A DNA stretch of 64,000 nt from Paenibacillus azoreducens (GTDB lineage Bacteria; Bacillota; Bacilli; Paenibacillales; Paenibacillaceae), in the NCBI RefSeq assembly GCF_021654775.1, contig NZ_AP025343.1, forward strand, positions 4,245,501-4,309,500. Direction: 5' to 3'. Shown piece after piece: positions 19,083-22,084 of this stretch; position 1 is the stretch's first letter; every line of letters begins with the position of its first letter. A program made the position numbers and the translations under genes. Under the pieces are notes generated by a model. The model was not told the DNA's origin and made no database searches. It saw nothing but the letters and a program-made list of their open reading frames with translations.

Positions 19083-19970
19083 TTATTTAATATATTTGTG
19101 GCTAACGAGATCAGCCGATATGGCTTCGGTTGGAATCACGAATTCCACGGCTCCCATGTATCCCGGCGCAACGTCGTATTTATTGAATGCGATGACAAGC
19201 TTGCCGTCTTGGTTGATATAGAAGTTTTGGTCTTTTTTGATGGATTTGAATTCATCCGTCGGCTGCAAATCGAGAGTTCCCGTTGTCCAGTACACTTTAT
19301 CCGGATCAGCTTTCATCTGCGCCTTCATCTGTTCTTTGATATTTTCGCTGATAAGCTGGATATACCGGTCATCCTTAAACAACATCGGCAATGTGATCAG
19401 CACCTGGTTCTTTTTGTCGATGGTATCCAGCTTGATTTCTTCGGATGATGAACCTGCGCTTTCTACGACATACCGTTCAATCGCGAGGATTTCTTCGGTG
19501 TCCGTTTTGACCTCATAACCTGCGTCCAGCCCCAAATGGCCGTCGCCTTGTTTCTTCATCTCTTTAATTTCCGCCTGGAATTTATCGTACAAAGCCTTGT
19601 TTTCTTTGAGATATTTCTCGTTTAATCCAAGCTCTAGCTCTTTGTTGTCGAGATGAGTGATGGCAGGCACCTTTATATTCGCATTATAGTTCTTCTCATC
19701 CACCACGTATTCCTTCAGCATAAGCACCTTGATGATCCGGTCAACACCGGGGATAGTCGATAAAGCATTCGCCACAGTCGAACTCGTATTAATGGTTACC
19801 AGGAAGATCAGCGCAGCCGCGCCAACGCCGGCGACCCATTTGTATTTGACGTTTTTATTTCTGCGGGCCTTGGTGGATTGCTTAATGGCCCTGCCTACGA
19901 TCATATCCAGCTCTTCAGGAATCGGTATTTCCTCGTATTCTTTCTGCAACTGGTTTATTTGCATATTCAT
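19083..19970 (-). CDS. rsiV: RsiV-like anti-sigma factor, lysozyme-sensing type
   Basis: 295 aa. Cytoplasmic segment 1-43 for sigma binding (EEIPIPEELDMIVGRAIKQS), one membrane helix about 44-63, then an extracellular DUF4163/DUF3298 domain ending near residue 290 (FYINQDGKLVIAFNKYDVAPG). In B. subtilis, RsiV binds lysozyme and is then cut by signal peptidase, freeing SigV. An AxA-like site (VANALS) lies just after the helix here and could be that cut. The ATG has AAGGAGAG upstream and begins one base after the sigma-factor stop, so the two are translationally linked. Confidence 0.87.
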   Translation of the reverse strand: MNMQINQLQKEYEEIPIPEELDMIVGRAIKQSTKARRNKNVKYKWVAGVGAAALIFLVTINTSSTVANALSTIPGVDRIIKVLMLKEYVVDEKNYNANIKVPAITHLDNKELELGLNEKYLKENKALYDKFQAEIKEMKKQGDGHLGLDAGYEVKTDTEEILAIERYVVESAGSSSEEIKLDTIDKKNQVLITLPMLFKDDRYIQLISENIKEQMKAQMKADPDKVYWTTGTLDLQPTDEFKSIKKDQNFYINQDGKLVIAFNKYDVAPGYMGAVEFVIPTEAISADLVSHKYIK

Positions 19971-19971
19971 T

Positions 19972-20478
19972 TTACTTACTCTCCTTTAAGGATTCGTCTA
20001 CCATCTTCACCCGCAGCATCTGCAGTCCTTGATAGAGCCTTGTTTTGATAGTATTGACATTCTCACCGAGCACTGCCGCCACTTCATCTATTTTCATGTC
20101 TTCAAAATATCTGAGTATAATGACACTTCGGTATTTCACCGGCAAATCATCAAGCGTTCTTTTCAAATCAATGTCTGTATATACATCCTCTGCGCCAGGC
20201 GCATAGATCTCGATCGTTTCATGGTCCATAGACTGAACCTTTTTATTCCTGCGCAGAAAATCCAATGCGGTGTTTACGACGATCCGGTAGAACCAGCTTT
20301 TGACGGCTTCCGGATTTTTTAACATTTCAATATTGGTCATAGCCTTATAAATGGAATCTTGTACGATATCAAGCGCATCTTCTTTATTTTTCACGTAGCT
20401 GTATGCAAGCCGGTAAACATTCTCTTTATGTTCCGTAATACAGCGTGTTAGCAATTTCTCTGTTTTCCTATTCAGCAT
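19972..20478 (-). CDS. sigV: ECF RNA polymerase sigma factor, SigV-like
   Basis: 168 aa. Region 2 is at residues 15-80 (YSYVKNKEDALDIVQDSIYK, WFYRIVVNTALDFLRR) and region 4 at about 110-160 (LPVKYRSVIILRYFEDMKI, VNTIKTRLYQGLQML). It directs transcription of envelope-stress genes, in B. subtilis those for lysozyme resistance such as oatA. Followed directly by rsiV. An ECF promoter with the same -35 and -10 blocks as that of the secreted RsiV-like gene lies 70-100 bases upstream, consistent with autoregulation. Confidence 0.88.
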   Translation of the reverse strand: MLNRKTEKLLTRCITEHKENVYRLAYSYVKNKEDALDIVQDSIYKAMTNIEMLKNPEAVKSWFYRIVVNTALDFLRRNKKVQSMDHETIEIYAPGAEDVYTDIDLKRTLDDLPVKYRSVIILRYFEDMKIDEVAAVLGENVNTIKTRLYQGLQMLRVKMVDESLKESK

Positions 20479-20548
20479 GTCGTTTTACCCTTCTCTGTAT
20501 AGTGGCTGGTGTCAGGATTTTCTTGGTAACCCTGTTTTTCAGGAGTAA

Positions 20549-20575
20549 GACGAATGAATACGGGGAAAAAGTTTG
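20549..20575 (-). promoter_or_regulatory. ECF (SigV-type) promoter of sigV-rsiV
   Basis: On the minus strand: CAAACTTTTTC (20575-20565), 12 bases, CGTC (20552-20549). The block, spacing and -10 are identical to those at 22058-22084. The rest of the 20580-20898 gap shows no gene; a weak GACCGG/CCGGTC hairpin at 20825-20858 may end the upstream gene. Confidence 0.75.
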
Positions 20576-20898
20576 CGAAAAATAAATTTTTTTATTGCCC
20601 CAGTGTGTTGATGGCATTAACGAGAATCGAGGCGTAATATTCCGCACCATCCCGCTTCAAAATGGTTTTTTGCGACATAAAAAAAATCGCCAACCTGATA
20701 CGGCTCTCGCGTACCAAATTGACGAATGCTGTGTAGAATTATTTATCCCAATTGATGATTCTAAGCAAAATGGGGGCTTTATCGTGAAACGTATAACCTG
20801 TAAAAAAAGGCGAAGCCATGTTCAGACCGGAAAAACGCCCCTCCCGGATTAGCCGGTCAATCACCTTCCAGAATACAATGGACAAATTGCCTTCCAAA

Positions 20899-21999
20899 TT
20901 ATTTTTGCACTTGGGCATTCAAAATTTCGGACACAAATTGTACAGGAACATAGATTTTGTTGTTATGGATTACAGGAGCAGCGCCTAAAGCTTTAGGAGC
21001 CATTTTGGCGATTGCATACGTATCCTTCCCAATGGCAATTCGCGTCCACACTGCATTTTTATGAAGTTCGACGCTTTTGGCCGCCTTGTTCCATGTCAAT
21101 TCAAAATTCAATTGATGAGCAACGTCACGCAAAGATACCATAGTGATGCCGTGACGGTTTTGGAATTTGCCCGCTTTTTTCAGATCAAACTTCACGTCCT
21201 TCCCCGTTTTGGGTGCTTCGGGTTTGGCACTGTCCGCGGACTGCCCCTTCAGGCTAAAACGGAATTCGGGTGAACCCTCGGAACCTGGAGCGATGCTGTA
21301 TTTAGGGAAAACGATAACAAGCTCGCCATGTTCGATGTAAAACGTCTGCTCTGTTGAAGTCCCTTTGTAGTCCTCTACGAAATATTTGTCGGGATTTTTT
21401 TTGATCTGTGCCAGAATGTCGGCGTCAAGCTTCTCTTTGTAATTTTTCCCGAGCAGATCGGCCAAAGTTACGCGTTCCGCAGCTGCTTTATTTTTTACAT
21501 TGTAAGTATCGATTCTTGGCATGCCGGTGCCGCCCGTCGAACCTGCGGTGATTACTTCCAGAGAAACGATGCCCGCGGGAGTTCCCGTTCCATCCGATTT
21601 GAGGCTGTAGCTGATATAAAGATCGTATGGATTGAGTTTCTGATGATTCGCTTTGGCTTCCGCCGCTGCTTGTGCCGCGTCCTTCTCCCATTGTTTCAGA
21701 TCTTTCTCCGCATGGGAAAGAATAATATAGTTCAACTCTTCCTGATATTTTTTATCCAGCATTCCAGACAATTGCGGTACTTTAATCTCCGTGTTCAGGT
21801 ATTTGCTGGCGGTAGTCAGCACCTTCTCATGCACTTTCACGCCAGCTGCCGCAGGTTTCATAACAAGCGCCTTCGTATGCACTGCCTGAGATTGAACCGG
21901 GGCCATTGCATGCACCGGAAGATTTGTCGCACTCAAGCCCAAGATGGCCGCGCAACATACCGCACTCATTTTGAACATCATCATAGTTTTCTTTTTCAT
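20899..21999 (-). CDS. Secreted RsiV-like (DUF3298) protein fused to a copper-amine-oxidase-N stalk domain
   Basis: 366 aa. Signal peptide (hydrophobic core ILGLSATNL, likely cut after VHA), then a DUF4163/DUF3298 domain at about 55-255, then a copper-amine-oxidase-N domain (about 275-365: GITMVSLRDVAHQL, NKIYVPVQFVSEIL). The line FYIEHGELVIVFPKYSIAPG matches RsiV's FYINQDGKLVIAFNKYDVAPG almost position for position. It lacks any cytoplasmic or membrane part, so it cannot hold a sigma factor. It may bind lysozyme outside the cell as a decoy, inhibitor or accessory sensor (inference). A SigV-type promoter precedes it. The ATG follows TTGGAGGA. Confidence 0.85.
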   Translation of the reverse strand: MKKKTMMMFKMSAVCCAAILGLSATNLPVHAMAPVQSQAVHTKALVMKPAAAGVKVHEKVLTTASKYLNTEIKVPQLSGMLDKKYQEELNYIILSHAEKDLKQWEKDAAQAAAEAKANHQKLNPYDLYISYSLKSDGTGTPAGIVSLEVITAGSTGGTGMPRIDTYNVKNKAAAERVTLADLLGKNYKEKLDADILAQIKKNPDKYFVEDYKGTSTEQTFYIEHGELVIVFPKYSIAPGSEGSPEFRFSLKGQSADSAKPEAPKTGKDVKFDLKKAGKFQNRHGITMVSLRDVAHQLNFELTWNKAAKSVELHKNAVWTRIAIGKDTYAIAKMAPKALGAAPVIHNNKIYVPVQFVSEILNAQVQK

Positions 22000-22057
22000 G
22001 TCTTTTATCCTCCAAGCTTTTCTAGATAAGTGCCTTTTGACCACACTCATGGACTAG

Positions 22058-22084
22058 GACGCAAGAGGAGCATGAAAAAGTTTG
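22058..22084 (-). promoter_or_regulatory. ECF (SigV-type) promoter of the secreted RsiV-like gene
   Basis: On the minus strand: CAAACTTTTTC (22084-22074), 12 bases, CGTC (22061-22058); same layout as the sigV promoter, and 59 bases before the ATG. Confidence 0.75.

Follow-up and report, generated by a model that had tools for sequence, protein, structure and literature searches.

In the soil bacterium Paenibacillus azoreducens, a gene next to the sigV-rsiV pair (20899..21999, minus strand; positions are those of the window, the 64,000-nucleotide stretch of contig NZ_AP025343.1, 4,245,501 to 4,309,500, that was analysed) encodes a secreted protein built from a DUF4163-DUF3298 module, with the fold of the anti-sigma factor RsiV, and a C-terminal Cu_amine_oxidN1 ("stalk") domain. 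Comparison of promoters across genomes makes it very likely that this gene is under SigV control, and lysozyme very probably induces production of the protein. A role as decoy or inhibitor is plausible, and our tentative preference, just short of an even chance, is for a soluble, wall-retained lysozyme-binding effector that would work like LbpA of Clostridioides difficile.

A SigV-type promoter precedes the secreted-protein gene

A sequence-only reading of this DNA had held that the sigV and secreted-protein promoters are identical in block and spacing, and they are: CAAACTTTTTC-N12-CGTC matches exactly both before the secreted gene (22058..22084, minus strand) and before sigV-rsiV (20549..20575, minus strand), two 27-base sites with 0 mismatches each. 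With up to 3 mismatches allowed, the window holds 4 matches against 2.86 expected by shuffling, the other two carrying 3 mismatches. Genome-wide, AAACTTTT-N14-CGTC has 6 exact matches, 5 of them at two sigV-rsiV loci: 2 lie in the window, 3 at a second sigV-rsiV locus, where they precede oatA, a secreted protein without Pfam match and sigV2, and 1 inside an open reading frame. The second-locus sites are informative because one precedes oatA, given as a SigV target in Bacillus subtilis in PMC5014341. As a control, shortening the gap by one base left 4 exact genome matches, none of which falls at either sigV-rsiV locus by its coordinates. Near matches across the genome (at most 1 mismatch) do not exceed a reversed-pattern control (70 vs. 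144), so that the promoter signal rests on the placement of the sites and not on their number.

Family searches, in which the 5 or 6 best candidates of each genome were scored and some may thus have been missed, placed homologues of the secreted protein (E <= 1e-20) in 90 and RsiV in 81 of the 394 genomes of the family. The table of homologue places has 92 entries, the second-module rows G286, G291 and G294 being excluded, and 42 of these are no more than 10 kb from rsiV; by identity, linkage was found for 18/18 at 60% or more, 8/9 at 46-59%, 14/17 at 41-45%, 2/7 at 38-40% and 0/41 below. We refer to the 26 linked homologues of at least 46% identity as type A and to the 16 linked ones at 40-44% as type B, labels that were assigned after the sites had been seen, the identity split being noticed later. 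All 26 type A genes have their own site, with AAACTTT, an 18-base gap after AAAC, and CGTC, located at -70 to -85 from orthologue starts picked by a simple rule, and only one shows a further gap in the range 13-23 as well. Conservation in these relatives covers AAACTTT, the gap and CGTC, but not the terminal C of the TTTTTC block. Type B genes have no site of their own (0/16), and 15 of the 16 stand directly behind sigV-rsiV, whose promoter in those 15 loci has a gap of 17 in 14 and of 18 in one; no site was found for G300, a type B gene divergent from sigV-rsiV.

The 50 unlinked homologues provide a further contrast, with a site in 8 of the 14 found in genomes with rsiV versus 0 of 36 in genomes without it (Fisher 5.6e-6, kinship ignored). 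Seven of these eight site-bearers come from one genus and show a gap of 17, as do the rsiV loci of the same seven genomes, and the eighth is G286, with a gap of 18; the unlinked promoter evidence therefore amounts to two lineages. The sole unlinked homologue of at least 46% identity, G222, is without a site. Before sigV itself a site is present in 56 of 79 named RsiV loci (one of the 80, L330, was skipped because its upstream sequence is lacking), with a gap of 17 in 33 and of 18 in 24 (one locus has both); other gaps in the range 13-23 did not occur. By group these are 33/39 Paenibacillus, 9/9 Bacillus or Bacillaceae, 2/3 Clostridium and 1/11 Lysinibacillus loci, the other 10 Lysinibacillus loci having neither a gap-17 nor a gap-18 site before sigV. 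The AAAC-CGTC gap of SigV promoters is thus lineage-dependent, at 17 or 18, and both forms occur in tandem before sigV in G285, G286 and G287. Interrupted copies in G061, G072 and G206 entered these comparisons only as the pieces found.

Chance similarity of the two window promoters was considered and rejected on the combined grounds of the genome sites, the window mismatches, the conservation among linked homologues and the contrast between genomes with and without rsiV. With a SigV-type promoter upstream of the secreted gene, the earlier proposal that it shares the SigV regulon is strongly supported by the cross-genome comparison. Open-access titles and abstract starts yielded no report of a secreted SigV-regulated DUF3298 protein or of SigV in Paenibacillus, nor a printed SigV promoter consensus, the one paper found being on Enterococcus and without a consensus in its available passages. 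The rule deduced here, AAACTTT, a 17- or 18-base gap after AAAC, and CGTC, is usable for mapping SigV regulons.

Architecture of the secreted protein

The most likely start of the secreted protein is the ATG at 21999, giving 366 residues, in place of the longer open reading frame from 22050: the latter is disfavoured because almost no leader would remain after the promoter, the former favoured because the first base of AAAC then lies 84 bases upstream, within the 70-85 range of the orthologues. The 366-residue form has a single hydrophobic stretch, from residue 6, and its residues 1-50 (21850..21999, minus strand), a putative signal peptide and low-confidence linker, have a pLDDT under 50 in the predicted structure; export by way of this putative signal peptide is judged from the hydrophobic stretch. 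DUF3298, PdaC/DUF4163 and Cu_amine_oxidN1 each score above the Pfam cut-off, and the predicted fold is likewise that of a DUF4163-DUF3298 protein, so that the pairing of DUF3298 with a copper-amine-oxidase-N domain stands as first described. The absence of a sigma-binding and a membrane part is also borne out: the N-terminal stretch is the only one and leaves no room for a cytoplasmic domain before it, unlike in an RsiV anti-sigma factor, where a cytoplasmic N terminus and a membrane span precede the ectodomain (in the window RsiV the hydrophobic stretch begins at residue 46).

Several known systems share parts of this design. The closest by description is LbpA, of the csfV operon of C. difficile, which PMC9044953 presents as an RsiV ortholog in the sigV operon that lacks the sigma-binding part, is membrane-bound, binds lysozyme and confers low-level resistance. 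Like LbpA, the secreted protein is a stand-alone RsiV-fold protein without sigma-binding part and belongs to the sigV regulon, a membership judged by promoter; unlike LbpA as described, it falls outside the RsiV clade, has nothing more than a signal-peptide-like stretch where LbpA is membrane-bound, and usually carries a stalk domain. The secreted family is thus set apart from LbpA as described in origin, architecture and predicted solubility. Compared with the RsiV ectodomain (PDB 5jen), it lacks the sigma-binding part and internal membrane span, differs in the S168-S169 loop and at Tyr261, and sits on a separate branch of the tree. 3CYG, an uncharacterised DUF3298 protein of Fervidobacterium, is both its best PDB sequence match and its top structural match, tied with RsiV by Z, and differs in having generic GGAHG and APYASG loops; structural matches ranking after the DUF3298 and amine oxidase entries were weak. 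Peptidoglycan deacetylases of the PdaC/PgdA type have the DUF4163-DUF3298 module in common with the secreted protein, which has no polysaccharide deacetylase domain. The lysozyme inhibitors Ivy, MliC and PliC resemble it, by description, in the proposed function; according to PMC5014341, the RsiV loops act in the lysozyme cleft similarly to these Gram-negative proteins of very different structure.

The stalk is absent from some relatives: G045, G067 and the database proteins P0047, P0049 and P0050 consist of one module without stalk. A secreted protein of G286 (L206:5510-6923), encoded behind a SigV-type site on a contig other than that of rsiV, has two tandem DUF4163-DUF3298 modules and again no stalk. 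The module, rather than the stalk, is therefore the constant part.

Lysozyme-facing loops and charge

According to PMC5014341, RsiV contacts lysozyme through loops that include S168-S169 and P259-G260-Y261, with S169, P259 and Y261 of importance, and the single mutants P259A and Y261A inhibit lysozyme like the wild type. The 32 RsiV proteins of the family keep these positions closely (S168 in 30, S169 in 29 with Thr in 2, Pro and Gly in 32, Tyr in 30 with Ser in 2). Type A proteins read GGT(S/G)MPR in the first loop in 25 of 26 (DGTSMPR in G346), with Thr at the S169 place by alignment in all 26; in the second, P-G-Y (once A-G-Y) is present in 18, Ser or Ala takes the place of Tyr in 8, the window protein among them, and Pro is found in 25. 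The first loop of type B differs again, and its second loop has P-G in 15 of 15 readable proteins, followed by Ser in 12 and Tyr in 1, the row of G023 being without letters at this loop. The loop alignment took in 31 of the 50 unlinked proteins, 3 further ones being read separately; of those 31, 23 show GG.HG in the first loop, while at the G260 position of the second, 23 have Tyr and 5 have Gly. RsiV and the linked proteins thus share a Gly in the active-site loop that most unlinked relatives lack, and 18 type A proteins also share the Tyr. The average net charge is -7 for the type A module, -10.5 for type B and -15 for RsiV, and +5 and +8 for the stalk tails of types A and B; an acidic module would be favourable for a cationic ligand, and a basic tail for an anionic wall.

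Several observations weigh against lysozyme capture by the secreted protein. Co-elution with lysozyme was not seen for Rv1980c, which has the DUF4163/DUF3298 domains but does not belong to the RsiV group (PMC5014341). In the window protein, Tyr261 is replaced by Ser and, by alignment, S168-S169 by Gly-Thr; at S169, P259 and Y261, the residues of an RsiV-type binder, it thus reads Thr, Pro and Ser, the loop alignment and hence the Thr being uncertain. Its module has almost no net charge (-1) and is followed by a tail of +9, and the charge pattern of the linked families recurs in weaker form in unlinked proteins (-4.6 and +3.4). As a set, the RsiV contact columns are not specially conserved in linked proteins (entropy mean rank 0.53 in type A and 0.46 in type B). 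Generic GGAHG and APYAGG loops are retained by the seven homologues from a single genus that have a SigV-type site, and three proteins with a PGA loop occur in genomes without rsiV. A strict pairing of SigV promoters with RsiV-like loops was accordingly rejected on the evidence of these seven proteins; SigV control and an RsiV-like surface need not go together. The earlier statement that the protein carries the DUF3298 domain that in RsiV binds lysozyme consequently survives in part: the domain is present, rsiV-linked relatives share the PG loop, 18 of the 26 close ones have the Tyr, and LbpA provides a precedent, but DUF3298 in itself does not predict binding, as Rv1980c illustrates, and the window loops lack S168-S169 and Tyr261.

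Origin of the secreted family

A quick tree of 78 rows, computed with the loop columns omitted, gathers the RsiV rows on one side of a branch with an SH-aLRT of 99, and places the secreted protein not with RsiV but with stalk-domain DUF4163-DUF3298 proteins; 30 of the 108 aligned rows were left out, and the outgroup branches (3cyg, L004) are long. Derivation of the secreted gene from a truncated rsiV duplicate was rejected on this tree, and neither the stalk domain nor the best PDB match favours it. The tree further puts G300, linked and without site, next to type A, and the unlinked G167, G168, G147 and G222 near linked groups. The RsiV-like loop of linked proteins may have evolved independently or may be a kept ancestral state, between which the root does not choose.

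One broader scenario would have the secreted lysozyme traps of Paenibacillaceae arise from ordinary stalk-domain proteins, be brought under SigV promoters repeatedly (next to sigV together with oatA, behind rsiV, and at unlinked places, among them that of the two-module version), and evolve the RsiV-like active-site loop independently in the linked lineages. Taken as a whole we consider it rather unlikely; if it were true, a sensor and a soluble inhibitor would share fold and promoter, and thereby constitute a built-in negative feedback.

Proposed mechanism and alternative explanations

In the scheme that we tentatively favour, binding of lysozyme to RsiV would lead to loss of RsiV and release of SigV, which would then transcribe sigV-rsiV and, from the matching promoter, the secreted gene, with oatA behind it in many relatives. 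The protein would leave the cell through its putative signal peptide, its basic C-terminal stalk domain would probably hold it near the anionic cell wall, and the RsiV-fold module would capture lysozyme, or a muramidase resembling it, and block it, in a division of labour with OatA. With less free lysozyme left to reach RsiV, the response would incidentally be damped. The promoter, the gene arrangement, the predicted fold and the signal sequence are the parts of this scheme taken directly from the analysis. The remaining steps differ in strength: the case for transcription by SigV is strong and that for muramidase binding moderate, while wall retention and damping of the SigV response are weakly indicated. 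A soluble protein of RsiV fold, under SigV control and conserved in many Paenibacillaceae, would exemplify a response that produces a sink for its own ligand.

The foremost rival, which we regard as unlikely overall, is that the module binds peptidoglycan or another wall polymer instead of lysozyme and that, under lysozyme stress, the protein acts with OatA in protecting or organising the wall. It ranks first among the rivals because polysaccharide deacetylases fused to the same module are encoded close to rsiV in 4 of 80 named loci, and in 2 of these immediately behind it. Even if wall-binding, the secreted protein would be a consistent addition to the SigV lysozyme-resistance gene set. More doubtful is a different attacker, with the module catching, in place of C-type lysozyme, muramidases of bacterial, phage or invertebrate origin or some other cationic protein: the first loop is unlike that of RsiV and yet shows above-average conservation in type A (mean rank 0.71, against 0.60 in unlinked proteins), but the gene shares the regulon of SigV, which in B. 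subtilis is specifically activated by lysozyme (PMC5014341).

Very little probability falls to the view that the protein is an ordinary stalk-domain envelope protein with an incidental SigV-like promoter. Homologues are frequent in the absence of rsiV, 36 of the 50 unlinked places being in such genomes; nevertheless, the occurrence of the promoter in every linked homologue of at least 46% identity, and its confinement among unlinked ones to genomes with rsiV, run counter to an incidental site. The sequence-only reading had also raised the option of a second sensor or presenter that carries lysozyme to RsiV and enhances signalling, for which only adjacency and the shared promoter type speak; we consider this the least probable, since RsiV binds lysozyme on its own (PMC5014341) and 36 of 81 rsiV genomes returned no homologue of at least 40% identity in our searches, some of them having more distant ones.

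The sigV-rsiV-oatA cassette and related loci

The window cassette comprises sigV (19972..20478, minus strand), encoding an ECF (extracytoplasmic function) sigma factor of 168 residues with Sigma70_r2 and Sigma70_r4_2 domains, and rsiV (19083..19970, minus strand), encoding an anti-sigma factor of 295 residues with one membrane span and a DUF4163-DUF3298 ectodomain that matches RsiV of 5jen at E 1.2e-60. In this RsiV, DUF3298 scores above the Pfam cut-off and PdaC below it, and the equivalents of S168, S169, P259, G260 and Y261 are all kept. Between the secreted gene and sigV lies a remnant of the oatA 3' end (20609..20661, minus strand), 88.7% identical over 53 bases to the intact oatA at L066:8585-8637. 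To judge from this remnant, the window oatA has been lost from a sec-oatA-sigV-rsiV order, and the intact copy survives at the second locus. That order, in one direction, is present in 18 of 26 type A genomes, 16 of 19 within the genus and 2 of 7 outside it. In G045, G206, G213, G246 and G229 the secreted gene stands behind sigV-rsiV and yet has its own site; in G041, as in the window, it precedes sigV without an intact oatA; and in G346 it is divergent from oatA-sigV-rsiV, again with its own site.

In six genomes no site was found directly before sigV. A GAAC variant precedes oatA in five of them, and the unit is probably read from that site or from the secreted-gene promoter. The notion that the secreted-gene promoter is the sole SigV-type site of the cassette in all six was dropped in view of the five GAAC variants; G060 alone has no second site in the cassette.

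The second full sigV-rsiV pair of the P. azoreducens genome (L066:5525-10541; G000:C1:3536524-3541540) is accompanied by oatA and the gene of the secreted protein that lacks a Pfam match, each of them preceded by the same SigV-type promoter, and relatives of that protein adjoin sigV in G035, G068 and G272. Of a third, broken rsiV (L005:1459-1629; G000:C1:3836909-3837079), the part for the final 54-57 residues is left, with 67-69% identity to RsiV of the window. In P. polymyxa ISL-58 (L280:8313-10192), sigV-rsiV and the secreted gene are followed by a SigV-type site, oatA fragments and a DUF3298-polysaccharide deacetylase; assignment of this site to the deacetylase was rejected, as it lies directly before the oatA fragments. 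Finally, in G183 (L200:3595-9887) the secreted gene comes after two consecutive sigV-rsiV pairs.

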